DNA of 64,000 nucleotides from Virgibacillus dokdonensis (lineage in GTDB: Bacteria; Bacillota; Bacilli; Bacillales; Amphibacillaceae): NCBI RefSeq assembly GCF_900166595.1, contig NZ_LT745763.1, positions 3,161,333 to 3,225,332 of the forward strand. The letters run 5' to 3'. Position 1 is the first letter of the stretch, and each line of letters opens with the position of its first letter. Positions 42,659 through 59,138 of the stretch are shown here, piece after piece. The position numbers and the translations under genes were made by a program. The notes under the pieces were generated by a model, which worked only from the letters and a program-made list of their open reading frames with translations, did not search any database and was not told where the DNA came from.

Positions 42659-44365
42659 GGGTCTTACGCAATGTTGGTGAATGGCAACCTATGGCAATGT
42701 GACTAGATATGATTATTTTATTAATATAATTATTTTGTGGTATGCAATACACGGATATTCAAAACTAGCGCGTCCATACATCATCCGTTTAATCATTTTT
42801 AGTCGATTAACATGACCTTCTTCGACAAATCCATTGCTTTCCTCAAATGAACATGCATGGAGAGTAGACGGAAAATCGACAAGTAAGCGATCGATGAATG
42901 CTTTAGTTAGAGAATCCTCACGACTTTTTTCAAACAGGACAATTTCCCGTAATTGTTCTTTATCCCGGTTTTAAGCCGCCTCTCGAAAGCCTTGAATGAA
43001 AGCAAAATAGGGGCGTAGTTCTGGATATCTTTTAAGAATAATATAAACGAACGCCTTGTCTTTTTCTTTTGTAGAATACCTCCATTGCCATAAAGCTCGA
43101 CGAATTTCATTTCTTGTGTAATAGCTTGATGGCTGAAGTGTTTGTCCCTGTTTTCGTTTTCTGGGAATCTCGGTAACTAGCACTCGTACAGAACTATAGG
43201 GACCTTTATATCCCTGTTCGGTGATGGTATTGTAAATTTCCTGAACAGTACGTCCATTTTTTTCTAAGGTGAAAACAGTTTCAGTCCAGTCATTAATCGG
43301 TTTTGAACGTTTTTTCCGTTCGCCTGTGTCTGGCTTTTTCTTTTAAGAGATCTGCCTTTACAGTTCGCCAATCCATATTCATCGTTGTCGCGATATGTCG
43401 GATGGAGTGTCCTTCCCCTTTTAACTTTTTGACTTGGATAGCTCGTTCCCATTTTTGCTTTGCATTTTGTTCTCTTCGCTTTTCCTGTTTCGTTAATGGT
43501 AGTGGAGAAGATGATGGAGACGGTTTATTCTCTTTCAATATCCGCGTGGGAAGCACTTTTTTTATAATCTGATTATGCAACGTCCATAGATTTTGAATAA
43601 GATGAAAACGGTCATGTATTTGGATGGCCTGCGGGAAAACCTCATTAATTGCTTCTCTAAAAAGGGCGAACCGATCTCTCGATATTCTTTGGATGACAGT
43701 ATTGTATTGCGCCAACCATGTCTTAAGTGTTTCAGCTGTTCGATCGGGTAATAAGTCAATGGGATGAGATGTTTGAGGATCGCAAATAATAACCCCATAC
43801 TTGTGTCGCCGTTTGAAAGCAAAATCATCAATACCAACGAAAGGGACTCTCCTTTTTTGGCAGAGGTGTTTTGTAGATAAGAAGCAATAAAGAATCATGG
43901 CTAACCGGCATACCTAATGTCCGGCACACTTTTTCTGCCTGCATTGCATTCGTTGAAAATGCAACCTCTCAAAGAGCATTTTCCAGTCGCTGAGTACGTC
44001 TGCGATAAGGAGCTATCCAAGGTAGTCGTTCTGTAAATACTTGTCTCTCACATTTGCTATTTTTGCAGAACCATTTATAAGATTTTACATGAATAAAAAC
44101 TTTACGTTCTTCTATAGGGAGATCTGAAATCTTACGCATATAGGAGCTATGACGATTAAAAGAACGCTTGCCGCATGTTGGGCATAGGGCGGAAGACGAA
44201 CAACAAACTCCATTCGATCAGATTCCTCTAATACCGATTCAACCTTAAGAAAGGGATCTAGTCGTTTCAGAACATTTTTCATGAGAATCACGCCCTTTTT
44301 CCTTTTGGTTGTTATATTCCCGTTTTATTGTCAAATAACACCCACCAAAAGTGCGTAAGAACCAT
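42659..44365 (-). mobile_element. ISL3-family element, degenerate
   Basis: The ends are imperfect inverted repeats: GGGTCTTACGCAATGTTGGTG at 42659 (first 20 bases considered) and, reversed, GGTTCTTACGCACTTTTGGTG ending at 44365. Inside, on the minus strand, is an ISL3 transposase in pieces: a CxxC-type N-terminal zinc finger (about 44100-44280), then VPFVGIDDFAFKRRHKYGV and IDLLPDRTAETLKTWLAQY, then FPQAIQIHDRFHLIQNL (DDE region) and QEKRREQNAKQKWERAIQ. Several frameshifts and stops make it inactive. It sits inside the group II intron remnant. Confidence 0.82.
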
Positions 44366-44674
44366 TTTATCATTGATATTTATAAGCTCTCACTGCACCC
44401 TCACAAGACCTCCTCCGGTAAGAGCGGAAACTTTCCTCCCATGTAACTGCTAGATCTACTGTATAGGTTTCGCAGTATTGGACTTTGTCTTGTTGTGCAG
44501 ACTTATCCGACCTAATTCAGCCTTCTATCTAGTTCTGTTCGTCAGTTCAGGAGTTTGCGTCCAGCTTCCTTTATCCATTACCTCACGACAACCACCTTGC
44601 CTTTCGCTAACAGTTCCTACTGCCAAGCCTGTAGTGGACTCTCACCACCAAGTTTCCACCCATGCAGGGCGCAC
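44366..44674 (-). mobile_element. Group II intron 5' end
   Basis: On the minus strand, starting at 44674, the sequence GTGCGCCCTGCATGGGTGG matches the GTGYG 5' end of bacterial group II introns. It is followed by domain I features such as GGTGGTGAGAGTCCACTAC and GGCTTGGCAGTAGGAAC. No reverse-transcriptase gene is left: the intron body is interrupted at the ISL3 right end (44365). The 5' exon is the Zur-box promoter region. Confidence 0.8.
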
Positions 44675-44680
44675 CCAAAT

Positions 44681-44709
44681 GAACAAATCGTAATAGTTAC
44701 GATTTGTTC
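44681..44709. promoter_or_regulatory. Perfect, orphaned Zur box
   Basis: AAATCGTAA-TAG-TTACGATTT (44685-44705) is a perfect 9-3-9 Zur palindrome, and symmetry extends to 13-bp arms (GAACAAATCGTAA / TTACGATTTGTTC). No intact gene follows on either side. On the minus strand it is followed at once by the group II intron 5' end, then ISL3, IS1182 and finally the cobW pseudogene, which it probably once controlled. Confidence 0.9.
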
Positions 44710-45057
44710 ATTGCTACTTACTTTAACATGAAACATGTAATGAGCAAACTATAAAAAAATAAAACGAGGTTTACTTCATAATACAAGACATATTCAGAAA
44801 TCCTAGCCCCTGGCCTCTCAAGCCAAACCAATAAAAAACAGTAGCAATATAAAACGCTGCTGTTTAGACACGCTGGAACATGGAAAACTTAATAAGGGGT
44901 ATCGTCAGGAAAATGCGAATTTACAACGCTAAGCACATTTTTGAGACGATTCCCACCATTTTTAACAATGTTAAGAAAGTTTCAATGATCTTAATGAATC
45001 TAATGAGACTGCTTTTTCCAAGTGAAAATGATATTCTCCTAGCAAATTAATATGTTC

Positions 45058-45350
45058 CTAGCCTAAAGGAGACATGTGGTACAATAATTTTTCATTAAAG
45101 CTACCTGTTTGTTTTTTATATTTAACTGCTTTTGTTAGATGTAAAGTATTCCAAGCACTTATGGCATTGATAATTATGTTTAAAGCACTGGCTCGTTGTA
45201 ATTGATGCTGTATGGTTCGTTCCCTAAGCTCTCCTTGTTTTCCAAAGAAAATAGCTCTTGCCAGCCCATTCTGGCTACTCCTTTATTCAATCCTTTTTGT
45301 GTTTTCCTTCTTAAAGATTCATCCGAAATATAATTTCGGAACAAAGACAC
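45058..45350 (-). pseudogene. Tn3-family transposase C-terminal fragment
   Basis: The minus strand reads SLFRNYISDESLRRKTQKGLNKG, then in other frames a stretch like IINAISAWNTLHLTKAVKYKK and KLLYHMSPLG followed by a stop. This is the C-terminus of a Tn3 transposase, where the order is normally SxxLIRHYISDEELRRRTQKGLNKGEARN. It is frameshifted and lacks the N-terminal 900 residues. Confidence 0.8.
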
Positions 45351-46370: not shown

Positions 46371-47219
46371 TTAGGAAGCCTTCACAGTTTTGTTTCTGTT
46401 TAATTTTCTAGTATATAGTAGTAGTGCTATTGATGAGAAGCTCAAAATAATCATTGAAATCACTCCTGCCTCAGACCCAAATTCACCGGCATGTAAAAGT
46501 TCATTTTGACTCACTTTAAATTTCAGCAGACTAGTTGCTTCTCTACCACTTACGGCAAATCCAAATACAGTTCCCTCACTTAAATTCCACATTGCATGAA
46601 ACGATATAGGCAATAATAGTGAGCCTTTATAGTCAAGTAAAAGAGCCATAAGTATTCCAAAAATAGTTAGTCCAATAAATGCCGAAAAGGAATACCCCGG
46701 GTTGAAGAGATGTGCTAAAGAAAATAATGCAGCCTGTAAAAGTATTGCTACACTAACTGGTAAGTATTTTTTCAAGTGATTATAAAGAAAGCCTCGAAAT
46801 AAAAATTCTTCTACCAATCCTACGCAGGTGTGAATGATCATTCCAGGAGCAAATCCAAACAAAATCCAATATGGAACACTATTTGATAGTCTTACTAGCT
46901 CTGCCCCAGTCAACATGTAGGTTACAATAATAAGTGTTTGAACTGTTAATGCCATGAAAAAGCCATTTAATATTTGTAAACTATTTCGCTGGGTTGTATC
47001 AAGTCCTAAACTCCTTAAATAGGTTATATCTCTATACCATATTATAAAAAAACCAAATAAGCCTAATAACTGACCAATTCTTTGGAATATTGATATTAAT
47101 AACTCAGAATTTAAAATTAATCCTATACTACCAAACATAAAAGCAACTATTTGGGAGAAGATAAAGGCAAAAACAACGAATAAAACATATTCCGACAATT
47201 GTCTATTAATACTATTCAT
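46371..47219 (-). CDS. CPBP-family intramembrane protease homologue
   Basis: A 282-residue membrane protein of the CPBP (Abi, CAAX-protease-like) family with about seven membrane segments. The EExxxR motif is in GLVEEFLFRGFLYNHL (about residues 139-154), the FxxxH motif in ALFSLAHLF and the HxxxN/D motif in FHAMWNLSEG. CPBP proteins in bacteriocin loci often give self-immunity. It is last in the RiPP gene set, 107 bp after the permease gene. It may be immunity or a processing factor; the two cannot be separated from sequence. Confidence 0.85.
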   Translation of the reverse strand: MNSINRQLSEYVLFVVFAFIFSQIVAFMFGSIGLILNSELLISIFQRIGQLLGLFGFFIIWYRDITYLRSLGLDTTQRNSLQILNGFFMALTVQTLIIVTYMLTGAELVRLSNSVPYWILFGFAPGMIIHTCVGLVEEFLFRGFLYNHLKKYLPVSVAILLQAALFSLAHLFNPGYSFSAFIGLTIFGILMALLLDYKGSLLLPISFHAMWNLSEGTVFGFAVSGREATSLLKFKVSQNELLHAGEFGSEAGVISMIILSFSSIALLLYTRKLNRNKTVKAS

Positions 47220-47326
47220 ATTATCACTCTTCTAACTCTTAATTTACATCACAATCCGATCTAGTTTATTCTCAAATTGATTTCCATTCTAACGTAACGA
47301 TAATCCATTTATGACCTTAGGTCTCA

Positions 47327-48079
47327 TTAGCGCCATTTAAACGTAACCTTACCAATATAAAATAGTACAATAGTGGAACCAAAGAGTACTAATATATTAA
47401 TATAAGCTGGAAACATAGGTGAAAAACTATCAAACATGACAGTACGAAGTAAATCCCCAAAGTAAGTAAAGGGTGAAATCATCGCTATTTTTTCAAAAAT
47501 ATCGGGAAATATTGTTAATGGAAGCAGCACACCACTTAACATTAATACTGGAGCTGAAATACCTCCTAATAATGCGCCAGAAACCTCTACTGAATTAAAT
47601 ATGCTACCGAAAATAAATCCAAGAGGTAAAATAAGGCACATTCCAAGTAAGGAAGCCCCATAAAATGGGATGAGGTGCTTTAGTTGGATGACCTGTATAA
47701 TAAATCCAACACTAAAAAAAAGGGTTATTTGAATAATTGATATGATAAATCGGATAGTTATCTGTGATAATAGAAACTCTCCCTTCGATAAAGGCGTCAC
47801 TTGAAATAACTTTAAAGTTCCCTTCTTCCTTAATTCAATCAAGGGAGTTGTCGTACCAAAAAGCCCTGTTGACAAGAGTGCAAATATTAAAACACCCGGA
47901 AACATAAACTCAATAAAGCTTAATTCCATCGATTCTGAATTAGGGATAAGCATTCCCATCAAACCAAACATAATTAAGAAGGTCACAGGAAAAATAATTA
48001 TAAAAAAAGCTGTTTTAAAATCTCTCATGATCTCCAAATATCCTGTCTTTACAAGTTTCACAAAGGATGTATTTTTCAT
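47327..48079 (-). CDS. ABC-2 type permease of RiPP cluster
   Basis: A 250-residue ABC-2 membrane subunit with six hydrophobic segments. ELRKKGTLKLFQVTPLSKGEF is the typical cytoplasmic coupling loop, and PLGFIFGSIF and LSGVLLPLTIFPDIF are family-like. Its start overlaps the end of the ATPase gene (ATGA). With that ATPase it forms a two-part exporter, for product secretion and/or self-protection. Confidence 0.87.
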   Translation of the reverse strand: MKNTSFVKLVKTGYLEIMRDFKTAFFIIIFPVTFLIMFGLMGMLIPNSESMELSFIEFMFPGVLIFALLSTGLFGTTTPLIELRKKGTLKLFQVTPLSKGEFLLSQITIRFIISIIQITLFFSVGFIIQVIQLKHLIPFYGASLLGMCLILPLGFIFGSIFNSVEVSGALLGGISAPVLMLSGVLLPLTIFPDIFEKIAMISPFTYFGDLLRTVMFDSFSPMFPAYINILVLFGSTIVLFYIGKVTFKWR

Positions 48080-48828
48080 TTTTCTTTACTACCCTCCAAT
48101 TTTTGTGTTGTTATATTAATAAAAGCATTTTCCAAAGTATAATTATCTTTCCTTGCAAACTTTTGAATGAAAGAAGTCGTATTGTCCGTATCCAAAACGG
48201 TTTTGTCATGCAATATTGAAATTCTATCACACAATCTTTCTGCTTCTTCCATATGATGTGTAGTTATCAAAATTGCTTTACCCTCTTTTTTTAAATACTC
48301 TAAAATATCCCACATTAATAACCTAATATGAACATCTAATCCTGCTGTAGGTTCATCTAGTAAAAGGATTTCTGGATCGCCAATTAAAGCAACGCCTATA
48401 TTGACCCTTTGTCTCTGTCCTTGTGATAATTCTCTGATTTGTTTGTCTTTTACATTAATTAAATCGAGTTTGGTCAACAATTCCTTCACAGGAATACTTT
48501 TTTTATAAAGGCTACCAAATAGTTCCAGTATTTCTTGAATGGTTTGTCTCTCAAATAAGGAATATTCCTGTAATTGGATCCCAATATATTCTTTTATTTC
48601 CTTAGCCGAGAGTTTCTTTTGCTCTTTATTATAAATGGATATATCACCTGAATCTGGTTGTCTAAGCCCTACTAAACTTTCAATTAAAGTGGTTTTACCT
48701 GCCCCATTACGCCCTAATACCCCTAAGATTTCACCTCGGTACATTGTTAGATTAACATCTTGAATCGCCAAGACATTATCATAAGACTTTTTTAAGTCAT
48801 TTACGGATAAAACAACTTCATTATTCAT
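48076..48828 (-). CDS. ABC transporter ATPase of RiPP cluster
   Basis: A 250-residue ABC ATPase. Walker A is LGRNGAGKTTLIESL, the signature LSQGQRQRVNIGVAL, and Walker B LLLDEPTAGLD with the switch His in ITTHHMEEA. It overlaps the permease gene by 4 bp and the elimination-enzyme gene by 8 bp, so it is co-expressed with the maturation genes. No peptidase C39 domain is present, so leader removal is left to another enzyme. Confidence 0.92.
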   Translation of the reverse strand: MNNEVVLSVNDLKKSYDNVLAIQDVNLTMYRGEILGVLGRNGAGKTTLIESLVGLRQPDSGDISIYNKEQKKLSAKEIKEYIGIQLQEYSLFERQTIQEILELFGSLYKKSIPVKELLTKLDLINVKDKQIRELSQGQRQRVNIGVALIGDPEILLLDEPTAGLDVHIRLLMWDILEYLKKEGKAILITTHHMEEAERLCDRISILHDKTVLDTDNTTSFIQKFARKDNYTLENAFINITTQKLEGSKEK

Positions 48829-49747
48829 TTGATATCAACTCTTCTCCTTTAAATAAGCGTCCAGACTCTTCGTCATATAAAGGTTTTAACAAAGCAGCAA
48901 GGTACGCCTCCTCAACAGGCCAAATACCTAAACGATTATTCATCATATGAATATAATGAAAACATAATTCCTCTATGGGTTGTGGAACCTTTTGATCACT
49001 TATAACTCGTTCTACTACTTTATTAATATCTTTCGCAAACTCCTCTATTTTTCTAATTAGAACCTCTGGCAAGGAATCTTTAATTAACTTTGTAGTCTCT
49101 ATTCGTTTCTGACCTGCTTTAAGGAAGCTATCTCTGTACATCAATCCTTTATCAGAATAATTGGCCCCAATCCAATAACTTATATAATTCATTAAAAAAG
49201 AGCTCACTTTATTTTGTTCGAGGCATGTATTCATGAATTCCGCCATAGTTAAAAGCCCAATGGTATACCGGTCAATTCTATCTTTATTTATATAATGCAT
49301 GAAATCTAATGTTAAATTGCTTGAAATCTCAAAAATATCCTCCGCATAGGTTACCCCAATACTTCCACCGTACTTTTCAATTTCGGGTTCATATATGTCC
49401 AATTCATAAAAACAGTCATTCAAACCGCTACTATTTTCCACATCTTCTAAAGGCAATATTCTCTCCTTCGTTGTGATGTTGACCTCTAATACCTCTGGTA
49501 GCTTTTTCTCCAAATCTTCTTCTATATAATTACAAACAAAATCTAAATCCTCATTATATACTTGCAATCTAAGCCTAATGTGATTACCAGTCTCATCAAT
49601 AAATTTTATAAAAAACCACTTTTGAACTTTTTCATTTGATTTTAATTCTTTATATAACTTCGACATAATATTTTCTACAAAATAATCAATATATTTTTCT
49701 TCTGGAAAGTATATTTTGTAATACACCCATTCTAAGTTTTGGTTCAT
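48821..49747 (-). CDS. SpaB_C / thiopeptide-type elimination enzyme
   Basis: About 308 residues from MNQNLEWVYYK at 49747 (AAAGGATG upstream). This is the SpaB_C, thiopeptide-type domain. WFFIKFIDETGNHIRLRLQ (about residues 44-62) holds the Arg-rich strand; IEKYGGSIGV and HYIHMMNNRLGI are the other two family motifs. In split LanB systems this protein removes glutamate from glutamylated Ser/Thr to give dehydroalanine/dehydrobutyrine. The [4+2] pyridine synthases share the fold. Because the elimination-type motifs are present and only one such gene exists, I favour elimination. Confidence 0.85.
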   Translation of the reverse strand: MNQNLEWVYYKIYFPEEKYIDYFVENIMSKLYKELKSNEKVQKWFFIKFIDETGNHIRLRLQVYNEDLDFVCNYIEEDLEKKLPEVLEVNITTKERILPLEDVENSSGLNDCFYELDIYEPEIEKYGGSIGVTYAEDIFEISSNLTLDFMHYINKDRIDRYTIGLLTMAEFMNTCLEQNKVSSFLMNYISYWIGANYSDKGLMYRDSFLKAGQKRIETTKLIKDSLPEVLIRKIEEFAKDINKVVERVISDQKVPQPIEELCFHYIHMMNNRLGIWPVEEAYLAALLKPLYDEESGRLFKGEELISNE

Positions 49748-49912
49748 TTGAATTATCATCCTTTCTCTGTGCTCAAAGCACTAATATTCATACAATTTTT
49801 CCCTTAAAAAGAATAGAAACATTTAAGGTTGAAAATACAGCACGTGAAAGCGAAAAAATCCGTCTCCTTATTCCGTATTCAATTTCACCTTCAATAAGTA
49901 CATGTTTTCAGT

Positions 49913-52393
49913 TTATTCTGTCCTGTTAAGACTCATAAGCTCTGTGTTTAAGGGCTGACCTGATGTATTAGTATAAAAAGCTTCATCAGAAGATGGTAGA
50001 GCCTCTGTAAAAATCACATATTCTATGTCATGATTTTTCTTCTTTTTAAGAACCTCTAAACAATAAGGATTACAAAAATTCATCCACATTGGTTTTCTAA
50101 TCATTGAATCACCTATATAATAAGTACTCATATAAGTTTCTAATGGGATCCCATGTTTCAGTCGAAAGTCATTAACTTTTATAAAATAATCGACCTCAGA
50201 TTCGTTATGATGCTTCATAGGTAATTCACTGAAAGGAATTTCCCATTGAGCGCGCTTATAAATGATATTCCCTTCCTGTTCTCGCGGGACAAAAGATATT
50301 TGATCCACTTTCTTCTCTTTGTTCTCCCAAGGTCTGGGATTGATCCCTATATTGGTATTAGCTGTCCATGGATTTACTAATGTTAATAAAATATTTGCTG
50401 GACCATTAAGTAAATGTTGAGGAATAGTTCCCAAGTATACTGGGGAAATAATCTGTCCCTCATCATCAAGAATATCCAATGTGTGATTATAAGAATTATA
50501 AGAAATCCTTAGTTTGGTAATATCTATATTTTTTCTACCGGTATGATATGATAACTCTGCAATACTGTCCACGGCATCTTTTAACACATTAAAGTTTTCC
50601 TGAAGGTTAGACCAATCCCCACCTGTAGTAAACTCTGCGACATTCCCTTCGTAGAATGTTGTTTCTATCCAGTCTCTAAGGGACTTTTGATATGCTTCTC
50701 CTAACAAAGGAACAAAACGTGAAAAAATATTACCCATCCCTGTTGAAACTTTATTCACAACAATATCGTATCCCTTTTCTGATACGTTGTTAGGAACTAT
50801 TTGGAAGTAAATAGTAGATGTTGGTTTAGCAATAGAATTTCTCTCAGGTTTATTTTCTGCCTCCCCTTCCCGTACTTTTTGATAGGAGTCTTGCACCATC
50901 TCGAAATAATTGAGATTATCATGTCCACTAGCATAAATAGTGAAAATAAAGCTTAATAGATTACAGGTGCCATCCTCTCCATATTCTTTTAAAAAATAAT
51001 CAACAATCTCTTGGTACATTGGCAAAATCTGCATATCAGAGGAGACTTTTTCATGAATTTTCTTCAGTTGTTCTTCTATATCTTCAGGTAAACTCACGTT
51101 TGTGTTGGAAGAGCGGACATCTTCATAAATCATATTCGTATCGTTTATCCAATATGGCTTTTTTATATCCAGTATAGTAAAAATGTTATTAACATGCTTC
51201 CTAAGTTTAATAACGTTATTTAACCTTTGATTGACATCTATTTCATAGTCCTTTAACTCCTCAATTAGTCTGTCAATAATAGAAAAGACTTGAATAAGTT
51301 CGTCATGATCCACCTTGTTTTCTATTAAAAAATCCTTCATGTAATGAAATATTCTTTCATCTCGAATATCCCATGGAATCATCGGTCTTAAAACTTTTGA
51401 AGATAAAAGTTGTCTAATAATAAAGGTTGATTTACTACCTAATCTTTCTTTTATTTCACTTATTTTATAAGTCTCCCTTTCATAGTGTTCGACTAAACCA
51501 TTATAAATTTTCACAATATTACTATTCTTTAAAACATCTTTAGTCTTCCAGGGAAAACCATCAGAATGCTTATAAGAACTCTTTATAAAGTATGTATGAT
51601 CCCCAACTTTAACTTGAGGGTTAAATTTAAACATAAATAAGTTTTTATAATAAAGTGCAAATGATTCGACAATAGTAGATATAATTGATCTATTTAACTT
51701 TAATGAACTTTTATGCGACGATTCACAAACGGAACTTGATTTTTCTTCTATTGGTATATACTTCAACTGTGTCAGTGCACTGAATGGACTTGTTTTAAGC
51801 GCACTTCTTTGTAAATAGGTAAAAGTAGTATTAGATAAAATAGACTTGTAATTATATAAATCCTTTTTGTCTTTTAGGATCGCTTGCGCAAAATCTTCAC
51901 TTGCAAGAACAATACCTTTCATCATATCGTTAACGTCTTCACTATTCATCAAGTTTAATAAATTATTACTGATACTCTCTATTTCTAGGTTATAGACAGA
52001 ATTAGCTTCTATCATGATATGTTTGAAATCGTTATATTGTGTTAAGTGATTTTGTAATGTAGCCTTTTCATTAGCCGATAATAGCTGATCTAATCTGTAG
52101 ATATAGTCCATCTTTAAATCCAAAGATCTTCCATTATATATATCTCTATTCAACTTTAATATATACCTTCTTAATGTATTATCTTTTATTTGAGGAACGC
52201 TCTTGTACAGAATATCATTAACTTCCGGCATGGCATGTTGTATCTCTTGTTTTAGGTTATATATTTTCTGATGTAAAGAGTTTGTTTCTTGTAAGTTTAA
52301 TTGTTCCATAAAATAAGAAGGTACCGAGGCTATTCTTCCTAAAAGAAAATTGGCTGTACTGACTCTTTCTTTTAGATTAATATTACCCATCAT
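49913..52393 (-). CDS. Split LanB: lantibiotic dehydratase glutamylation protein
   Basis: An 826-residue protein of the Lant_dehydr_N family. In split class I dehydratases (TbtB/GodF type) this subunit uses glutamyl-tRNA to glutamylate Ser and Thr in the precursor core. Visible features include SALKTSPFSALTQLKYI, the conserved block SPVYLGTIPQHLLNGPANIL and the Arg-rich INPRPWENKEKKVDQISFVP. It lacks a C-terminal SpaB_C domain, which is supplied by the separate gene at 48821. GGAG lies before the ATG. The gene is intact. Confidence 0.9.
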   Translation of the reverse strand: MMGNINLKERVSTANFLLGRIASVPSYFMEQLNLQETNSLHQKIYNLKQEIQHAMPEVNDILYKSVPQIKDNTLRRYILKLNRDIYNGRSLDLKMDYIYRLDQLLSANEKATLQNHLTQYNDFKHIMIEANSVYNLEIESISNNLLNLMNSEDVNDMMKGIVLASEDFAQAILKDKKDLYNYKSILSNTTFTYLQRSALKTSPFSALTQLKYIPIEEKSSSVCESSHKSSLKLNRSIISTIVESFALYYKNLFMFKFNPQVKVGDHTYFIKSSYKHSDGFPWKTKDVLKNSNIVKIYNGLVEHYERETYKISEIKERLGSKSTFIIRQLLSSKVLRPMIPWDIRDERIFHYMKDFLIENKVDHDELIQVFSIIDRLIEELKDYEIDVNQRLNNVIKLRKHVNNIFTILDIKKPYWINDTNMIYEDVRSSNTNVSLPEDIEEQLKKIHEKVSSDMQILPMYQEIVDYFLKEYGEDGTCNLLSFIFTIYASGHDNLNYFEMVQDSYQKVREGEAENKPERNSIAKPTSTIYFQIVPNNVSEKGYDIVVNKVSTGMGNIFSRFVPLLGEAYQKSLRDWIETTFYEGNVAEFTTGGDWSNLQENFNVLKDAVDSIAELSYHTGRKNIDITKLRISYNSYNHTLDILDDEGQIISPVYLGTIPQHLLNGPANILLTLVNPWTANTNIGINPRPWENKEKKVDQISFVPREQEGNIIYKRAQWEIPFSELPMKHHNESEVDYFIKVNDFRLKHGIPLETYMSTYYIGDSMIRKPMWMNFCNPYCLEVLKKKKNHDIEYVIFTEALPSSDEAFYTNTSGQPLNTELMSLNRTE

Positions 52394-52498
52394 ATATTTT
52401 TCTCCTTTTTGATTAGCAGTTATAAATCACTAAAAATGTTTTACGAAGATGAGAGGAAACAATTTCAGCATAAAAATTATAACTTTCTCAAAAGATTC

Positions 52499-53635
52499 TC
52501 AAAATAAATTCTTACTTATACTAGTAACATAAAATAATAATAAAGTACTTATAAAAACCATCAAATACAATGAAGCTACTACTGAATAACTTATATATAT
52601 AACTTCTTTTCTCTTTGACATACTATTTAGATATTGTGGTTTTTCTTTATTCAACAAAATAGATTTCAAATATTGAAAGCTATTTCTTCTTAAATTCATA
52701 TCTTTCGTTAAACTTTCAATAAACCGATATAAGTCACTCGGAAGCAATAAATTTGTATTTATTAAAAAAACAAAGATTTGAATCCCCATAATATAATATG
52801 CTATATCCTGTAGCTGACCACCTTGTGTCATAATAATTGTGACCGTTATCGATAAAGAAATGAGATCAAAAAGTGGACCAGCTATCGAAATAATTGCTCT
52901 CGATTTCCGAGGCAACTTATATGTATCTGTTAAATCTAAATATGCAACTGGAAGAATATAATATAATAACCCCACACCTATCTCCCTAATATCTCCTCCA
53001 AGTACCTTACAAGTAAATGCATGCGATAACTCATGTAACAGTAAATGCATCAAAATCCAAGGCGCTATATAAAACAGTAACGAAGCACTGGGAGGGCGAA
53101 TTTCAGGATTAAAATTGAAGAAAGCGTATATTAAGTACGAGAGTAAAACTATAAATAAAACACCAATAAAGTACAGCGTGATCTTACTAGGGCTTTTGGC
53201 CTCTCTATTCTTTCTTTTAAAGAATAAGTCCATCATGTTATTGATTTTATAGGTACCTAATTTGACTACGCGAAACTTAGAGCTTTTTTCTCCTTTTGAA
53301 TGAATTTCGTTTGTTGTTTCAAATCCCTTGTATACAATTAAGCCCTTTCCAACAAGCTGTTTAATAAATAAATGTAATTGTTTCTCAACTTGCACATCAT
53401 TATATTTGTCATGTTTTTCACAAAATTGAGTTACAAGTTCTTCAGCCGTCGAGCATTGCTTTTCTAACAACCTAAATAATTCAACGGCGGAATTTCCAAT
53501 TTGATAATACTTCTTTGCAACTTTTGAATATAACAAGTACTCGTTACCATTATGGATGAGAGTCACATCCGGATTAATCATTAATTGATTCATGGTTTTC
53601 TTAGTTTCATTAGATACTTCATGCTCGTGAAGCAT
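52499..53635 (-). CDS. PqqD-like domain fused to M50-type metalloprotease
   Basis: A 378-residue protein. The N-terminal 105 residues are a PqqD-like winged-helix domain (KKYYQIGNSAVELFRLLEKQ then VGKGLIVYKG) that could bind the leader peptide. The rest is a membrane M50-type zinc protease with HELSHAF (HExxH) at about residue 200, a likely third ligand Asp in LDLTDTYKLP, and four to six membrane segments. It may cut the leader from the modified precursors or act in immunity. AAGGAGGTGA precedes the ATG. The placement directly after the precursor genes supports a processing role. Confidence 0.82.
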   Translation of the reverse strand: MLHEHEVSNETKKTMNQLMINPDVTLIHNGNEYLLYSKVAKKYYQIGNSAVELFRLLEKQCSTAEELVTQFCEKHDKYNDVQVEKQLHLFIKQLVGKGLIVYKGFETTNEIHSKGEKSSKFRVVKLGTYKINNMMDLFFKRKNREAKSPSKITLYFIGVLFIVLLSYLIYAFFNFNPEIRPPSASLLFYIAPWILMHLLLHELSHAFTCKVLGGDIREIGVGLLYYILPVAYLDLTDTYKLPRKSRAIISIAGPLFDLISLSITVTIIMTQGGQLQDIAYYIMGIQIFVFLINTNLLLPSDLYRFIESLTKDMNLRRNSFQYLKSILLNKEKPQYLNSMSKRKEVIYISYSVVASLYLMVFISTLLLFYVTSISKNLF

Positions 53636-53660
53636 ATAGGTTCACCTCCTTAATATTTAG

Positions 53661-53690
53661 ATAAAAGGGAAGATCAAAAATCTCCCCTCT
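53661..53690 (-). terminator. Attenuator-like hairpin after precursor genes
   Basis: On the minus strand AGGGGAGAT-TTTTG-ATCTTCCCT (one G-U pair) is followed by TTTTAT. A weak terminator between precursor genes and maturation genes is common in RiPP operons, where it makes precursor mRNA more abundant. Confidence 0.6.
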
Positions 53691-53695
53691 ACTAT

Positions 53696-53875
53696 TTAAC
53701 CAGCGGTTGAGTACGAACTTCCTGTACTGAAAGATGATCCTGCACACGCTGCACAGAAGGCACACGCAACCGTTGCAGCTACGCCTGTATAATTAATGGA
53801 TTCTGGCAATTCCTCGGCATAGAGCGTTAGTTTTTCGACCTTCTCTCCATTCATATCTTTGTTGGTATACGACAT
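53696..53875 (-). CDS. RiPP precursor peptide C (Ala/Ser/Cys core)
   Basis: A 59-residue precursor starting MSYTNKDMNG at 53875 (GAGGAGG 9 nt upstream). The leader ends with the shared block LTLYAEELPESINYTG. The core that follows, VAATVACAFCAACAGSSFST and then GSSYSTAG, has three Cys in an Ala-rich first half and a Ser/Thr-rich tail. The Cys residues would become thiazoles and some Ser/Thr dehydroamino acids or oxazoles. It is third in order of transcription after precursors A and B. Confidence 0.87.
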   Translation of the reverse strand: MSYTNKDMNGEKVEKLTLYAEELPESINYTGVAATVACAFCAACAGSSFSTGSSYSTAG

Positions 53876-53907
53876 TTTATACATCCTCCTCAATTTAAGT
53901 TCATCTA

Positions 53908-54081
53908 TTATCCGCTAGCACAGGCTCCAGTTGATGCACATGATGCTGTCGCTGGACAACTAAAACAAGCAAAACTAGCCGCGGACCCCCAACAACTAGC
54001 TATTCCAGTATAGTTTATTTTTTCTGGAAGCTCCTCAGCAAATAGTTCTAAATCTAATTCCTTTTTTATCTTATCATTCAT
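53908..54081 (-). CDS. RiPP precursor peptide B (Cys-rich core)
   Basis: A 57-residue precursor from MNDKIKKELD at 54081 (GGGAGGTG upstream). Its leader has LELFAEELPEKINYTG. The core starts at IASCWGSAASFACFSCPATA and goes on SCASTGACASG: five Cys and nine Ser/Thr in about 32 residues, with repeated SC/AC pairs suited to azole formation. It is the most heterocycle-ready of the three. It contains Trp and two Phe, useful for mass-spectrometric identification. Confidence 0.88.
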   Translation of the reverse strand: MNDKIKKELDLELFAEELPEKINYTGIASCWGSAASFACFSCPATASCASTGACASG

Positions 54082-54127
54082 CCTAAACACCTCCCATCTT
54101 ACATCTAATTCACACAACAACTTGTTA

Positions 54128-54307
54128 TTACCAGCTTAAAGATGCTGCACTGGATTGCGTACTCATTGTTGTACCTGGACAAGATGCACTAGATATTGTT
54201 GAGTTGGTTGATGCTGTTGATGGTGAAACAGCTGAATATTGGGATAAGTCCGGTAACTCTTCGGCATAAAGCTCTAACTTTAATTTTTCGTCAACTATCT
54301 TTTCCAT
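54128..54307 (-). CDS. RiPP precursor peptide A (Ser/Thr-rich core)
   Basis: A 59-residue precursor from MEKIVDEKLK at 54307 (GGGAGGGAGG upstream). The leader has LELYAEELPDLSQYSA. The core AVSPSTASTNSTISSASCPG then TTMSTQSSAASLSW has about 18 Ser/Thr in 34 residues but only one Cys. It should depend mainly on the dehydratase pair and on Ser/Thr cyclisation. Its core is quite unlike B and C although the leaders match. Confidence 0.87.
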   Translation of the reverse strand: MEKIVDEKLKLELYAEELPDLSQYSAVSPSTASTNSTISSASCPGTTMSTQSSAASLSW

Positions 54308-54408
54308 TTCCCTCCCTCCCTTCACTAAGTATTTTCAATGTTTTTCAATATATATAGTTAAATTCATGGATGTACATTTTAAGGTTTTTTATGATAAATT
54401 TGGTAAAC

Positions 54409-55092
54409 TTACACAGTATATCCAAATGCAAATGCTAGTACTTGGTACTGCCGGTATCCATCAATACCACTAATTTGGTAGAATAATCTAGGATTAAACC
54501 CAGCATAAACCGTTCCTTCATAACCTAAAGATAGGCTATACAGCCAAGAATAATAAAGAATGCTCCCGGATTGAATTAACATATCCTTATAGCCTCTCAA
54601 AGATGGGCTACTTTCCTTTAGAAATTCCTCTAATTTTGCAACTAATACTATGTTGGCTGGAGCTTCTGAAAACTCTTTTTGCAGAAATAACTTTTGTATT
54701 TTTTCCTCTTCTACTTCCTCTTTTTTTATTATAGATTTAGAATTTACATCATATAAGTAAATATGATTATTGGAGATACTTTTATCATCTGTATTCCTTA
54801 TGAGTACATATTGATCAAACATATTTGGGTTTTTAAAACTATTAGAGATAAAATGATAATTGTTGTATAAAATATTTAAAAGATCGTGTAACTTTACTGG
54901 TTTTTCATTAAAGAATCGTACAGACCGTCTTTTTGATAATATATCCTCAATGGACGTTCCCTCTTCAGCCAGATGTAAAATGCTTGTACGATCAAACTCT
55001 TGCTTTGTTTTAGTTGGATCTACCTTTATCATACTTTTATTTATAATATCTCCAACTATCTGTTCTGGAGCAGTACCTTTAAATGTGATCAT
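54409..55092 (-). CDS. SagB-like dehydrogenase, second half
   Basis: A protein of about 227 residues with a nitroreductase/SagB fold. ILSKRRSVRFFNEKPVKLHD is the N-terminal FMN-phosphate-binding motif, and GYEGTVYAGFNPRLFYQISG plus the end VLAFAFGYTV are typical of the C-terminal part. It would oxidise azolines to azoles with FMN. The start ATG at 55092 has AAGGTGGGTG upstream and overlaps the previous gene by 14 bp. That previous gene carries another SagB-like domain, so the pair may form one split tandem dehydrogenase. Confidence 0.82.
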   Translation of the reverse strand: MITFKGTAPEQIVGDIINKSMIKVDPTKTKQEFDRTSILHLAEEGTSIEDILSKRRSVRFFNEKPVKLHDLLNILYNNYHFISNSFKNPNMFDQYVLIRNTDDKSISNNHIYLYDVNSKSIIKKEEVEEEKIQKLFLQKEFSEAPANIVLVAKLEEFLKESSPSLRGYKDMLIQSGSILYYSWLYSLSLGYEGTVYAGFNPRLFYQISGIDGYRQYQVLAFAFGYTV

Positions 55093-56773
55093 TTTTATCA
55101 CCCACCTTAATTGTTAATACAACAGTTATAATTTCATTTAAATTATCAATCCCTAGGGCCTGTCCCACCTTTTCTTCATTGACATGAATCTCCCCTACCC
55201 CTAAATTTAGATAGTGAGCGACAGTTCGAAATTGTGTTAATGCAACTCCCGCATCAAAATGTATAACTTTATATGCAAAATCATAGTATTTTTGCGCAAC
55301 CTTTGAAAAATCTCCAGTTAAAATAACATATCCCAATGTGTTCGACATATCCTCAGTGCAATGAGTCTCTAATTCATCTATTACATGATTTGGTAATGTA
55401 GCCAAACAATGATTAGATTCTTGATAGAAATATGTTCCAATTCCTAAATCTTCTATTCTTTTATTAACAAAGTAGACATTTTCTGATCCGAGATTCCCCC
55501 CAGTAGGCGTCCAACGTTTTGCTTTACCTTCTTTATACTCTACACTTTCTCTATTAAATCCAACTGTATAAAGAAATAACTTCGCTAGATTGTCTGTAGA
55601 ATAGGTATTTTTTTCTCGTGTGGAATTTAAATCAGGCAATTTTTCATTATTTTTTAAAGGTCTTTTCGGAGCACTATAATACCCCTTAGACTCTTTAGCA
55701 AGCGCTAAGTTACTAGTTTTATAATGATTTTGATGGTCCTTTGGATTCAATAAGTCGGGAGGAGGAAAAGCTATTTTACTTTCCAACTCTATAATTTTAT
55801 TAAATATAGCTGGCGACCCTTTTTTTACGTCGCATTGTTCACAATAAGGTTGTTTAACGATATAATGAAATTCTCCGGTGAGGTGCTTAATATTAATGAT
55901 CTTTACGCCTTGGTGAATTTTCGAAGGGGATATTCTGCTGATAAAATTTATGAGATCGATGATAACTGTTGAAGCGCTTGCTGACATAAAATGAATATTT
56001 TCATTTGAATTCGTGTGATCCTTTTCTATATTGATTTGGTTTAAGTAACAATGAAAGCAAAGAGAGTCCTTCTTGCAAAAGTACGGCCCTATAAACACAT
56101 ATGGACTGTTATTTACAATCAGAATCCATGGAATCTCCCGCTTTCTCATTTGTTTATCAAATTCCATGAATTGATCAAGGTCTTCGATATTATTACAAAT
56201 ACCTATACCAATTCTACTCATGCCCTCAACATCACTAGTGTCCGTATATTCAGTGTACTGTCTATATCGAATTGGATATTTAGCTAACTCCTCCAAATAT
56301 TCCTCTATGTCACTATCCGTTGAATGAATGATTAATTCTGTACTTTTCAAGATTTCCATTGCCTCTGCCGCAGTTGTATTAAAACGTGTCTGATCCAAGT
56401 GTCGCTCGAAATATTTACTTAATGCTGTATCCTGCTGATTATTTTGTCTGCCTTGTATAAGACCGCGACTATATAACAATGCTATGGCATCATACTTCGT
56501 TTCTACCGTGTGCTCAGGTAAAATATGTTCCAAATCTTCCAGTGTTTTTTTACCATCTAATTGTTTTAATAATGTGGGCAAAAATTCTTTCGTCAACCTC
56601 CCCCTTAAAACTTGCTTTTGATTGACCCCATCAAAAATCACTCCATTTTCGATAGGTACTTGTACTGTATTCGTTGGAAAATAAGGAAGTTTTGGGAGCT
56701 GAAACTGCGGGTCATGTCTTACTGCCTTACCGATATCCTTTGCCGCTATTTTTTGTATTGTTTTCAAATTCAT
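55079..56773 (-). CDS. Fusion: peptide clamp / E1-like / SagB-like domain
   Basis: A 564-residue three-part protein. Residues about 25-110 (PIENGVIFDGVNQKQVLRGR then LYSRGLIQGRQ) look like a PqqD-type RiPP recognition element. Residues about 110-350 are an E1/ThiF-like cyclodehydratase partner with paired Cys: CFHCYLNQ and PYCEQCDVKKG. Residues about 365-560 are a SagB-type dehydrogenase domain: FLYTVGFNRESVEY, RWTPTGGNLGSENVYFVNKR, LGIGTYFYQES and HFDAGVALTQFRTVAHYLNLGVG. It would bind leaders, present cores to YcaO, and help oxidation. AAAGGATGAG precedes the ATG. Confidence 0.83.
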   Translation of the reverse strand: MNLKTIQKIAAKDIGKAVRHDPQFQLPKLPYFPTNTVQVPIENGVIFDGVNQKQVLRGRLTKEFLPTLLKQLDGKKTLEDLEHILPEHTVETKYDAIALLYSRGLIQGRQNNQQDTALSKYFERHLDQTRFNTTAAEAMEILKSTELIIHSTDSDIEEYLEELAKYPIRYRQYTEYTDTSDVEGMSRIGIGICNNIEDLDQFMEFDKQMRKREIPWILIVNNSPYVFIGPYFCKKDSLCFHCYLNQINIEKDHTNSNENIHFMSASASTVIIDLINFISRISPSKIHQGVKIINIKHLTGEFHYIVKQPYCEQCDVKKGSPAIFNKIIELESKIAFPPPDLLNPKDHQNHYKTSNLALAKESKGYYSAPKRPLKNNEKLPDLNSTREKNTYSTDNLAKLFLYTVGFNRESVEYKEGKAKRWTPTGGNLGSENVYFVNKRIEDLGIGTYFYQESNHCLATLPNHVIDELETHCTEDMSNTLGYVILTGDFSKVAQKYYDFAYKVIHFDAGVALTQFRTVAHYLNLGVGEIHVNEEKVGQALGIDNLNEIITVVLTIKVGDKNDHI

Positions 56774-56785
56774 CTCATCCTTTAT

Positions 56786-57400
56786 TTAATTAAATAATTC
56801 CTCTTGAATATGAATATACCCTCTTGTTTTTTCTTCTCTTCCTAAACCACACCTTGGACATCCATGTACTCCTATCACCTGGGATGAAATTGGTTCTCTT
56901 GTTACTAAGTTTAGTTGTATAACTTGTCCACGAACATCTGAGAAACAATTGGATAAATTACCTAATAACCAGGATGCTAAAAAACTAGGTTCTGATGGGT
57001 GATAACCGGTAGAAAATGTTTGGAGATTGTGATCATAAAATTGCCACACCTCTTTTAATACTTGAGAAACTGGTGAATGCTGCAATATTCGATCAATATA
57101 ACAATGATAACAAGCGTCTTCTGCACTTCTCCAAATGGGTCCAATAATTACATTAGGCTGATCAATTATAATTGGAACAAATATCTTTTTTTCTTTGTAA
57201 CTATAATCGCTTATTTTCTTACAAAAGGACACGCAAGGGTTATCTGATATAACTACTATTAACTCCGCTGCTTCTAAGTCTGGATTATTTAAAATAATTG
57301 CTTCACTTATCTCGATTGAAGTAGTTGTTGAAATATTTTTTTTCAATATTTGAGATACTTCTTTAGATAAGGGACCATTAGTAAACATATGAATATTCAT
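56786..57400 (-). CDS. E1-like (ocin-ThiF-like) cyclodehydratase partner
   Basis: A 204-residue protein that resembles the E1-like domain of the fusion protein next door but lacks the N-terminal recognition element. It has the same kind of paired Cys: DACYHCYIDRIL and HGCPRCGLG, likely a zinc site, and FVPIIIDQPNVIIGPIWRS. A second, small E1-like protein beside a fusion protein is unusual. It may form the YcaO-partner heterodimer. AGGAGG precedes the ATG and the gene follows ycaO by 11 bp. Confidence 0.78.
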   Translation of the reverse strand: MNIHMFTNGPLSKEVSQILKKNISTTTSIEISEAIILNNPDLEAAELIVVISDNPCVSFCKKISDYSYKEKKIFVPIIIDQPNVIIGPIWRSAEDACYHCYIDRILQHSPVSQVLKEVWQFYDHNLQTFSTGYHPSEPSFLASWLLGNLSNCFSDVRGQVIQLNLVTREPISSQVIGVHGCPRCGLGREEKTRGYIHIQEELFN

Positions 57401-57411
57401 CTAAATGCCTC

Positions 57412-58719
57412 CTATGCAAATGGACTCGGATTCGAATTTATTGAAGACTCTTTTCTATCCCCAAGTCCTAAATTTATTGCTGCATCGTATACTCTATTAT
57501 GCCCCAAGTATCTTGCTCTGTGCACAAAGGATAAGGGCTGTAACCCTGGTATAATAACCTTGACAGTTCTAAATCCACACCTAAGCGCCTCATCTGTAGT
57601 AAGATCCACTACAAAAACCTCTAAATTTTTTTCTTTTAGTTTGTTAATTAAAAAGGATAGCTCCATAGCTGAAGATTCTTTCGATAAATTCTTCATATCT
57701 AATAAATTAATCTCTTCCCTCGAACTAGTTAAAAAATCAAACTCTTTCATTTTATCTGGTTTCCCCATATAAAGAGCACCATCAAAGACATCCCTAAAAT
57801 GATCTATATTTGATGTTTTGGGGAACCTATTTTGTAATGCATACTTTACTGAAGCTGTTTCACGGGTAATTTTTGTATAAGCTTTTAAAGGGTCTAAGTC
57901 TGTAGTACACATGACGATGGTTGAAATTTTATCATTGTATGGAGAGAACTGGATTGAATAAATTGTCGGTACACCAATATCAGTTGTAGCATCTAAATAA
58001 TATGTTTTAAGATAATCAATTTTTTCATTTTGCACATAGAACTTTTGGGCCCATTTTGGTAATTTATTATAATCTACCTGTATTCTCCGCCATGAGATTT
58101 TATGTAACCATGTTAATGAAATTGCATCCCGCTCTATGACTTCATTGATTCCATTTATTATAGCTTGATTATATGTTGTATGAGTTGCGGTTCCAGTTGA
58201 GATTGGTAAATAGAACTCTTCTGCACGACTTTTAAAGGGGATGAATAAATAAGCCATAATTGCTGGAATCCATATAGGTCGCTCTTGAGTTAAGGACATT
58301 CCTTTTACCCAACGAATTTTCTCATTTTTATCTGGTTTTCTTACTGGACAATATGGACTGGCTAATTCTTGTTCAGAACATATCGGGACTGTATCTAGAT
58401 TTAATGCTTCTTCTCCCAACTCATTGGCCGTAGCAAAAATAAATTGATCTTCTGTATAAACAGCATTACAGTACCTTTCAAGCGCCTCTGCATATGCCTT
58501 AAGCCTAGCCTCTTCTCTGTCGACATCCCCTCCCGCCCCTGGTAACTCCATTGGCATGCCATAATTATTATTTTTTAGCCTGGCGATGTTACTTAAATTT
58601 CCTGAATCACATCCAAACATTATATATTGTGGTTCCCCGGGTGTGTTAGGAAGTTCGTATGCTCCTGTAAGTAGTCCACCTAATGGTTGAGCTAGTGCAT
58701 CAATCTTCATTTCATTCAT
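57412..58719 (-). CDS. YcaO-family azoline-forming cyclodehydratase
   Basis: A 435-residue stand-alone YcaO protein, ATP-dependent, which turns Cys/Ser/Thr in the core into thiazolines/oxazolines. ATP-binding motifs are REEARLKAYAEALERYCNAV (about residues 68-87) and GINEVIERDAISLTWLH (about 190-206). GCDSGNLSNIARLKNN and the C-terminus SNPSPFA (a Pro-containing tail as in azoline-forming YcaOs, though not a strict PxPxP) are other marks. It is the first gene of the RiPP operon, followed closely by both E1-like genes. Confidence 0.92.
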   Translation of the reverse strand: MNEMKIDALAQPLGGLLTGAYELPNTPGEPQYIMFGCDSGNLSNIARLKNNNYGMPMELPGAGGDVDREEARLKAYAEALERYCNAVYTEDQFIFATANELGEEALNLDTVPICSEQELASPYCPVRKPDKNEKIRWVKGMSLTQERPIWIPAIMAYLFIPFKSRAEEFYLPISTGTATHTTYNQAIINGINEVIERDAISLTWLHKISWRRIQVDYNKLPKWAQKFYVQNEKIDYLKTYYLDATTDIGVPTIYSIQFSPYNDKISTIVMCTTDLDPLKAYTKITRETASVKYALQNRFPKTSNIDHFRDVFDGALYMGKPDKMKEFDFLTSSREEINLLDMKNLSKESSAMELSFLINKLKEKNLEVFVVDLTTDEALRCGFRTVKVIIPGLQPLSFVHRARYLGHNRVYDAAINLGLGDRKESSINSNPSPFA

Positions 58720-58871
58720 GTCCTCTATCTCCTTTACCTTTAATAAACTAGCTTGTTCCTTATAATATTAAACCCAAGTGTTAGATCCCTATATTCGTAT
58801 TACTAGAACTATAAACTAAATATCCCGCCAGTAGGTTATTGCACTCCTGAATTATCTGAAAATTTCGTTAG

Positions 58872-59138
58872 TCACATCATATGCCCGATAAGGTTTATTG
58901 TCAATGACTTATAGCTGTTTTTCTGTTTACACTTCTCTTCTATATCTGTATCTTCCGAAATTTCAATCCCTAATCGATCACAGAGTAACTGGAGAATTTC
59001 AGGACTTGCATTCGTCTTTTGATTCTCTATTTTTGATAGATAGGACAAGGAAACGATACCCTCCGATAATTCTTCTTGTGTCATCTTGCATTTCAATCGG
59101 TGCAATTTAATAAATGAGCCAATATGCACTAGATTCAC
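58872..59138 (-). CDS. Truncated RNPP/Rgg-like XRE regulator
   Basis: An 88-residue protein starting with GTG. It has an XRE HTH at residues about 5-60: IGSFIKLHRLKCKMTQEELS, then SLSYLSKIENQKTNASPEIL. This HTH style belongs to long TPR-containing RNPP regulators (PlcR/NprR type), which are normally about 300-450 residues and bind signal peptides. Here the TPR part is missing, as the frame stops soon after. It lies just upstream of ycaO on the same strand, so it may still act as a minimal repressor or be a broken quorum sensor. Confidence 0.7.
   Translation of the reverse strand: MNLVHIGSFIKLHRLKCKMTQEELSEGIVSLSYLSKIENQKTNASPEILQLLCDRLGIEISEDTDIEEKCKQKNSYKSLTINLIGHMM

Follow-up and report, generated by a model that had tools for sequence, protein, structure and literature searches.

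A probable goadsporin/spongiicolazolicin-type azole peptide gene cluster with three precursor types in Virgibacillus dokdonensis

YcaO, E1-like and SagB proteins together introduce azoles into peptides. In goadsporin, these azoles require an X-(S/T/C)-X context, and dehydroalanine (Dha) at S4 and S14 depends on the azoles that follow (PMC5303826; this and the other papers are cited from excerpts). Nostatin A is described as made of Dha/azole/unmodified tripeptide units, spongiicolazolicins and goadsporin being very similar (PMC11583998). Here we describe a cluster of Virgibacillus dokdonensis that probably directs the synthesis of three linear azole-containing peptides of this type. It lies in a stretch of 64,000 nucleotides (the window; assembly GCF_900166595.1, contig NZ_LT745763.1, positions 3,161,333 to 3,225,332); coordinates below are those of the window unless a locus is named.

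The cluster comprises 13 genes from YcaO (58719) to CPBP (46371), all open and all on the minus strand (Table 1). A first-pass annotation, made from the sequence alone, had proposed a complete RiPP (ribosomally synthesised and post-translationally modified peptide) cluster of goadsporin-like type, combining azole and dehydroamino-acid chemistry, in a Bacillaceae host. Every gene that it listed was found open, at its place and on the minus strand; the families were assigned by profile search, and gene set and homology support the proposal, as does the host, placed close to Virgibacillus (Bacillaceae) by an LCP protein with 96% identity to that of V. dokdonensis. However, its statement that no nameable system corresponds was not borne out: the core gene set is also present in Streptomyces pacificus CWH03, the spongiicolazolicin strain, and an Anoxybacillus plasmid displays the same gene order. 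The "three unlike cores" that it noted are recurrent types and constitute the most informative feature of the locus. Intergenic gaps range from -23 to +12 nt between YcaO and the second SagB gene and do not exceed 153 nt elsewhere. The G+C content of the cluster (0.32-0.34) differs from that of the 4 kb on its right (0.37-0.39) but says little by itself given the range over the remaining window (0.32-0.40).

Relatives were collected by a genome scan with an alignment of the E1-SagB fusion protein (37 loci), to which the Anoxybacillus plasmid and two further genomes were added, giving 40 loci. Seven core genes were followed: YcaO, short E1-like, E1-SagB fusion, second SagB (SagB2), PqqD-M50 and the N- and C-domain proteins of a split LanB (LanB-N, LanB-C). 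YcaO and the fusion are both present in 39/40 loci, largely by construction of the sample, and occur with both LanB proteins in 27/40. All seven genes were detected in 21/40 loci by single-sequence search and in 25/40 when SagB2 was sought by profile; both ABC genes are also present in 17 of the former 21. The association is more than chance because all seven core enzymes recur among the relatives compared. L025 and L032 gave no E1b match. Of the twelve loci without a LanB match, at least L017 lies on a truncated stretch. That the cluster is silent or decaying and makes no product is an unlikely alternative. It would fit the remnants of ISL3, Tn3 and a group II intron to the left, the broken permease on the right and the small size (88 amino acids, aa) of the helix-turn-helix (HTH) open reading frame (ORF), but no biosynthetic gene is interrupted, and plausible ribosome-binding sites precede most of them.

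The cluster YcaO is the sole PF02624 match in the genome (4.6 Mb in 15 contigs searched). With its E1-like/RRE (RiPP recognition element) partner it forms the combination that characterises goadsporin/spongiicolazolicin-type linear azole peptides. The short E1-like protein aligns solely to positions 149-296 of the 319 in TIGR03603 and has neither a Pfam nor a PDB sequence match; its N-terminal RRE part seems to be absent. The fusion protein scores above the cut-off for TIGR03605 and below it for TIGR03882 (9e-5). Its profile matches MusD, TruD, LynD and PbtF on the N side and 3eo7 and McbC on the C side. Its AlphaFold2 model (predicted local distance difference test, pLDDT, 80; predicted template modelling score 0.67) gives Foldseek matches to TruD, LynD-type heterocyclases, MccB, ThcOx and McbC. 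The two E1-like proteins may pair as in the McbBCD synthetase, which is also among the matches.

Sequence and fold predict a SagB-type azoline dehydrogenase dependent on flavin mononucleotide (FMN), in two proteins. Both were modelled as nitroreductase domains (mean pLDDT 80 and 81), the latter value and fold being those of SagB2, whose likely start is ATG 55092. Their conserved motifs are complementary. In the fusion SagB domain PTGGN is found in 29/30 sequences and KY in 30/30, and PTGG is missing from the matched SagB2 region in 30/30; the motif G-x-x-F/Y-A-G is present in 30/30 SagB2 and in 0/30 fusions. The solved chain 3eo7 carries two nitroreductase domains, each bearing one motif type. 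Its first domain is best matched by the fusion, the aligned part including PSAGG and not RRSxR, while its second half aligns with the SagB2 profile and includes KRRSTR and not PSGG. By profile, SagB2 accompanies 38/39 fusion loci, the exception being L017, where the contig ends inside the fusion gene; a single-sequence search overlooked it in 10/39, nine of which were recovered by the profile. In two Nonomuraea loci (L030, 9947-12478; L040, 9944-12472) the fusion and SagB2 are a single protein with SagB2 at the C-terminus, encoded in single open frames of 843 and 842 residues. The fusion SagB domain and the separate SagB thus probably form an obligate heterodimer, a proposal in which we have good confidence. 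One observation weighs against it: a looser pattern for the SagB2 Arg motif does not separate the two proteins clearly (21/30 SagB2, 6/30 fusions). The case for the heterodimer was therefore built on the PTGG/KY and FAG motifs, 3eo7, the co-occurrence of the two proteins and their natural fusions. A strict Arg-motif pattern was discarded, the window being its sole match, and a single PTGG match in the SagB2 of L026 lies outside the matched region. A complementary pair would explain why clusters keep both the fusion and a second nitroreductase, and would mean that reconstitution of activity needs both proteins. Keyword searches of open-access PMC surfaced no description of such a split pair.

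The split LanB is recognisable by sequence as a glutamylation and an elimination protein. LanB-N is just above the Lant_dehydr_N cut-off (4e-7; 29.1 bits against 28). Its closest PDB relative is 9jhq, a "Goadsporin biosynthetic protein" that is presumably GodF (1.8e-44), followed by 6ec7 (1.5e-9), with no further PDB match up to E=10. A LanB-C profile built from 11 sequences matches full-length LanB proteins (5ehk, which we take to be MibB, 2e-16; 9g04, 4e-14; NisB, 3e-13) far better than the pyridine synthases TsrE (4e-4) and TbtD (0.13). R62, R64, H271, N275 and R276 are invariant in 11/11 aligned sequences, His271 being aligned with the His of NisB IHVHNNRL. An NRL pattern (28/28) was dropped in favour of this 11-row alignment since it also matched L073 by accident.

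These data bear on the term "thiopeptide-related" of the first-pass annotation, which is appropriate for the ancestry of the enzymes and not for the product. A thiopeptide cluster, in which the single Lant_dehydr_C protein would be the pyridine synthase and a macrocycle would form, agrees with the name of TIGR03891 (thiopeptide biosynthesis) and with the "thiocillin family RiPP" matches of the precursors, two of three above cut-off. It is nevertheless very improbable: LanB-C resembles full LanB, it keeps the RxR and His residues, and its assignment as pyridine synthase would leave the cluster without an elimination protein and therefore without Dha for the cycloaddition. The TbtD-type [4+2] pyridine synthase by which thiopeptides (pyritides) are recognised was not detected in the cluster, and the genome holds one PF14028 match, elimination-like, although a divergent enzyme could escape detection. 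The family search of the genome is fallible, which weighs against our assignment: PF04738 gave no match at all, overlooking the LanB-N of the window itself, and its silence was not used. Thiopeptide identity was rejected for want of a detected pyridine synthase. Since LanB-C is single and of the elimination type, no pyridine ring would form, and the expected products are linear peptides with azoles and Dha/dehydrobutyrine (Dhb). A dehydrazole identity was also rejected: no LanM match was obtained, nor DUF4135 up to E=0.1 in ten cluster proteins.

Three precursor genes, with starts corrected from ribosome-binding-site spacing, lie between SagB2 and the protease gene. Better starts appear to be ATG 54307 for A1, ATG 54081 for A2 and, for A3, either ATG 53884 (62 aa) or ATG 53875 (59 aa). 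A1 and A3 exceed the cut-off of NCBIfam NF033482 ("thiocillin family RiPP") and A2 remains below it (23.6 bits against 25); these matches may reflect composition and spacing. A2 can be parsed as the triplets SCW GSA ASF ACF SCP ATA SCA STG ACA, and A3 as ATV ACA FCA ACA followed, if the frame shifts by one, by SSF/STG/SSY/STA units. When best-frame C/S/T occupancy was compared with 1000 shuffles, the triplet spacing was significant for A2 (p=0.004) and A3 (p=0.021). Among 84 precursors p was below 0.05 in 35 and below 0.01 in eight. Two points count against this reading: A1 falls short of significance (p=0.061), and the p-values, obtained on 84 related sequences, carry no correction.

Taken as a whole, the assignment to a goadsporin/spongiicolazolicin-type cluster with three products, including the five steps that follow, has in our estimate a probability of roughly 0.7. 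The RRE of the fusion would bind the shared leader motif L-x-L-Y/F-AEELPE. YcaO and the E1-like proteins would then cyclise C/S/T at the middle of X-(C/S/T)-X triplets, and the two SagB proteins, acting as one FMN heterodimer, would oxidise azolines to azoles. The split LanB would dehydrate Ser/Thr directly before an azole, yielding Dha-azole-X units. Finally, PqqD-M50 would cut the leaders near the boundary between the last two positions of Y/F-[S/T]-[A/G] and the ABC transporter would export the peptides, while ABC/CPBP may protect the producer. For leaders ending at Y-T/S, the calculated [M+H]+ values of the unmodified cores are 3263.47 (A1, 34 aa), 2903.16 (A2, 32 aa) and 2605.10 (A3, 29 aa); if the middle residue of all triplets became an azole and any Ser/Thr before it were dehydrated, they would be 2973.15, 2650.88 and 2444.89, respectively, and under a shifted frame the second half of A3 may contain up to 4 Dha.

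Precursors were counted in 28 LanB-type clusters including the window. A looser scan served to fill in six loci by hand, one false row of L028 was dropped and the third precursor of L072 was found by a targeted look. At least two precursors were detected in 22/28 clusters and at least three in 20/28 (range 1 to 5). Cores were compared by alignment of the last 32 residues. A1, A2 and A3 of the window pair best with precursors 1, 2 and 3, respectively, in 7/7 loci that then had exactly three, and this order is kept in 11/18 loci with at least three precursors. Compared with shuffled cores, total scores are +11.2 standard deviations (s.d.) for L001, +9.7 s.d. for L021 and +5.0 to +9.2 s.d. for the other 16. 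Between three-precursor loci the 1-2-3 order is found in 21/28 pairs. For one such locus per clade, chosen by us across two phyla (Bacillota and Actinomycetota), 12/15 pairs of the six representatives keep the order, and of 7,776 orderings solely the natural one reaches that value. When the cores of the six are taken as 26, 28 or 36 residues long, 11/15 pairs do so. With L072 added afterwards (seven loci) the value is 18/21, and among 46,656 orderings the natural one alone attains it. The window shares clear types with L001, L021 and L072, in all three of which A1 counterparts were found.

Several observations argue against a strict trio. The order is not kept in 7/18 loci (L007, L008, L015, L024, L026, L028, L034), an extra type-3 gene occupying slot 1 in L015 and L034; the types are weak between the window and L009 or L013; and a single precursor was detected in 6/28 clusters (L025, L029, L030, L032, L040, L041). 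Such single-precursor clusters mean that the enzymes do not require three peptides. However, types and order recur at 22-56% enzyme identity to the window. As read from these alignments, the trio therefore predates the divergence of the clusters or travelled as a unit, and the presence of the same three types in the same order in some very distant bacteria suggests that the peptides belong together. Keyword searches of open-access PMC surfaced no description of such a trio.

As a sixth step, the three core types would be kept together because the peptides act jointly, which is plausible but less likely than not. Bacteriocins of several components occur among lanthipeptides and unmodified peptides, and prochlorosins provide an example of several precursors sharing one machinery; keyword searches of open-access papers surfaced no multi-component bacteriocin among azole peptides. 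Three independent products using shared machinery, each a separate bacteriocin against different competitors and without cooperation, is a reading with slightly less than even chances. The number of precursors varies from 1 to 5 across the 28 clusters, some arrays lack a fixed order or repeat a type, and a common leader is enough for the sharing of enzymes; yet the ordered types in two phyla (18/21 pairs) are unlike a freely diversifying library. If the trio does act together, this mode would be new for azole peptides and could account for the reported inactivity of spongiicolazolicins, if these were tested singly. The larger proposal, that an ordered trio of dissimilar cores made by one machine in Bacillota and Actinomycetota is needed together as one bacteriocin, and that an asymmetric synthetase arose from SagB, perhaps also E1-like, duplicates that each lost part of their functions and act solely as heterodimers, is likewise less likely than not.

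The products may be antibacterial. Spongiicolazolicins are listed among bacteriocins (PMC7616364), but the excerpt describing their assays reports no antibacterial activity (PMC8838263), which counts against this view. That lack of reported activity, together with the induction of secondary metabolism and morphogenesis by goadsporin (PMC5303826), would suit peptides serving as signals or morphogens rather than bacteriocins. We regard this as rather unlikely, given that the ABC exporter and CPBP protein in the operon resemble export and immunity functions.

In the tree of YcaO and fusion sequences the bacilli group together (support 0.97), and Sphaerimonospora L021 falls well outside their clade. 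YcaO alone gave 55 pattern matches in contigs of close relatives and no relative of the cluster; viral contigs gave 85 pattern matches and no relative, and phages none. Within the same family LanB-N was found in the genome itself and, as one weak match, in G101 among 159 genomes; the locus of the latter (L073) gave no match to the fusion and is not counted in the LanB-type set. A class-wide search with the fusion alignment passed 62/398 genomes, with full-length matches solely in the genome itself and G342, the other matches listed concerning the SagB part alone. The order-wide search returned 1/397, the genome itself, and a LanB-N protein search returned three proteins including that of the window. 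The cluster extends predicted goadsporin-type chemistry to several Bacillota.

Two groups of loci gave no LanB match. In Actinoplanes (L006, L010, L011, L014) YcaO, E1, fusion, SagB2 and M50 are present without a LanB match, and precursor candidates of L010, L011 and L014 are Gly/Cys-rich repeats; their products are perhaps azole-only peptides. The actinobacterial loci L035-L039 carry YcaO, E1-like, fusion and SagB2 (by profile) without M50 or LanB matches and are another branch of the fusion family. In L036 and L037 the precursor candidates are short and carry CGKPP close to the end.

Table 1. Features of the cluster and its upstream neighbour (window coordinates; a slash marks the putative leader cleavage site)
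Feature	Position	Strand	Length	Predicted role	Support
HTH_3 protein	58872..59138	-	88 aa	candidate regulator just upstream	PF01381 6.7e-13
YcaO (D protein)	57412..58719	-	435 aa	azoline-forming cyclodehydratase	TIGR03604 1.4e-96, PF02624 7e-57
Short E1-like protein	56786..57400	-	204 aa	presumed YcaO partner	TIGR03603 2.4e-9 (below cut-off), TIGR03882 3.2e-7
RRE/E1-like + SagB fusion	55079..56773	-	564 aa	leader-binding scaffold and half of dehydrogenase	TIGR03605 4.3e-26
Second SagB-type protein (SagB2)	54409..55101	-	230 aa	other dehydrogenase half	PF00881 5.3e-9; nitroreductase fold
Precursor A1	54128..54307	-	59 aa	...LYAEELPDLSQYS / AVSPSTAS...SLSW	NF033482 4.2e-8
Precursor A2	53908..54081	-	57 aa	...LFAEELPEKINYT / GIASCWGSA...ACASG	NF033482 4.5e-5
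Precursor A3	53696..53884	-	62 or 59 aa	...LYAEELPESINYT / GVAATV...SSYSTAG	NF033482 1.3e-7
Hairpin and U-run between A3 and M50 gene	53636..53700	-		candidate attenuator	fold -16.6 kcal/mol
PqqD-like + M50 intramembrane metalloprotease (HELSH)	52499..53635	-	378 aa	presumed leader peptidase	PF02163 1.4e-11, PF05402 3.6e-6
LanB N-domain protein	49913..52393	-	826 aa	glutamyl-tRNA-dependent Ser/Thr glutamylation	PDB 9jhq 1.8e-44
LanB C-domain protein	48821..49759	-	312 aa	glutamate elimination giving Dha/Dhb	PF14028 4e-39, TIGR03891 2e-32
ABC transporter ATPase	48076..48828	-		export and/or immunity	PF00005 1.7e-33
ABC-2 permease	47327..48079	-		export and/or immunity	PF01061 1.6e-17
CPBP (Rce1-like) membrane protease	46371..47219	-		self-protection or processing	PF02517 6.5e-19

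The PqqD-M50 protein matches the daptide HExxH profile NF041824 below its cut-off (5e-22), and the HExxH pattern is present in 32/32 relatives having the gene. A strong match to CPBP was found among the 40 loci solely in L001 (1e-51), with a weak one in L010 (4e-4). A promoter-like sequence (11/12) occurs at 58904-58876, although such sites in total are not above shuffles (61 vs 64.1). The hairpin between A3 and the M50 gene is not significant (z -1.3) and is not among the predicted terminator-like sites; at the equivalent position of L001 the fold reaches -26.2 kcal/mol (z -4.9).

Mobile-element debris adjoins the cluster at 43293-45347. It includes ISL3 transposase pieces, a match to group II intron D1-D4 (44423-44592) and a Tn3-family transposase remnant (~44892-45347) with ~87% identity to copies on plasmids of Listeria and Lysinibacillus. 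On the other side, an amino-acid permease is broken over three frames (61235-62665, minus strand; AA_permease in two of three pieces) and seems to be a pseudogene or the result of sequencing frameshifts. Further away, a 619-aa ORF (36417-38276, plus strand) is preceded by a 219-aa lipoprotein-like ORF. On the Anoxybacillus plasmid (L001 17877-26484) the cluster is near comX with neighbouring regulators and a skfA/skfB sporulation-killing-factor cluster.

Goadsporin (god, Streptomyces sp. TP-A0584) shares with the window a cyclodehydratase, an FMN dehydrogenase and a split LanB yielding azoles and Dha (PMC5303826). No [4+2] enzyme is reported in the excerpt of Cox 2015 (PMC4603692), and among solved structures the LanB-N of the window is closest to a goadsporin protein. 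Unlike the window, the god cluster has one precursor gene and a fused cyclodehydratase (PMC4603692). Its leader is likely removed by an ABC transporter with a peptidase domain, where the window has an M50 protease, and the peptide is then N-acetylated by GodH (PMC5303826), whereas the window cluster is without an acetyltransferase. Coryneazolisins also derive from TOMM (thiazole/oxazole-modified microcin) clusters with lanthipeptide-like dehydratases and, in the same excerpt of Cox 2015, no [4+2] enzyme, but have two D proteins and nearly invariant precursors unlike those of other TOMMs (PMC4603692). In dehydrazoles, Ser preceding azoles is dehydrated, as proposed here, however by a LanM-type dehydratase rather than a tRNA-dependent split LanB (Pei 2023, PMC10676384).

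In the locus of S. pacificus CWH03 (L026) all seven core genes were detected, and several precursors have acidic leaders. One of the four has a 29-residue end after LPEEYS, fitting the length given for spongiicolazolicin A in the excerpt at hand; from strain name and length we infer that L026 makes spongiicolazolicin. However, its four precursors do not sort into the three types of the window, its 21.6-kb locus gave no ABC or CPBP match and its enzymes are 22-42% identical to those of the window. Anoxybacillus amylolyticus plasmid pDSM15939_1 (NZ_CP015439, L001) carries its genes in the order seen here, from YcaO through to CPBP, with three matching precursor types and 32-56% identity in ten enzyme and transport genes. 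It differs by a response-regulator gene upstream and by ~1.8 kb between A1 and A2. As judged from these sequence comparisons, the machinery is of the known goadsporin/spongiicolazolicin kind; what marks this cluster as a variant is its ordered trio, its M50/CPBP set for processing and export and its occurrence in a bacillus.

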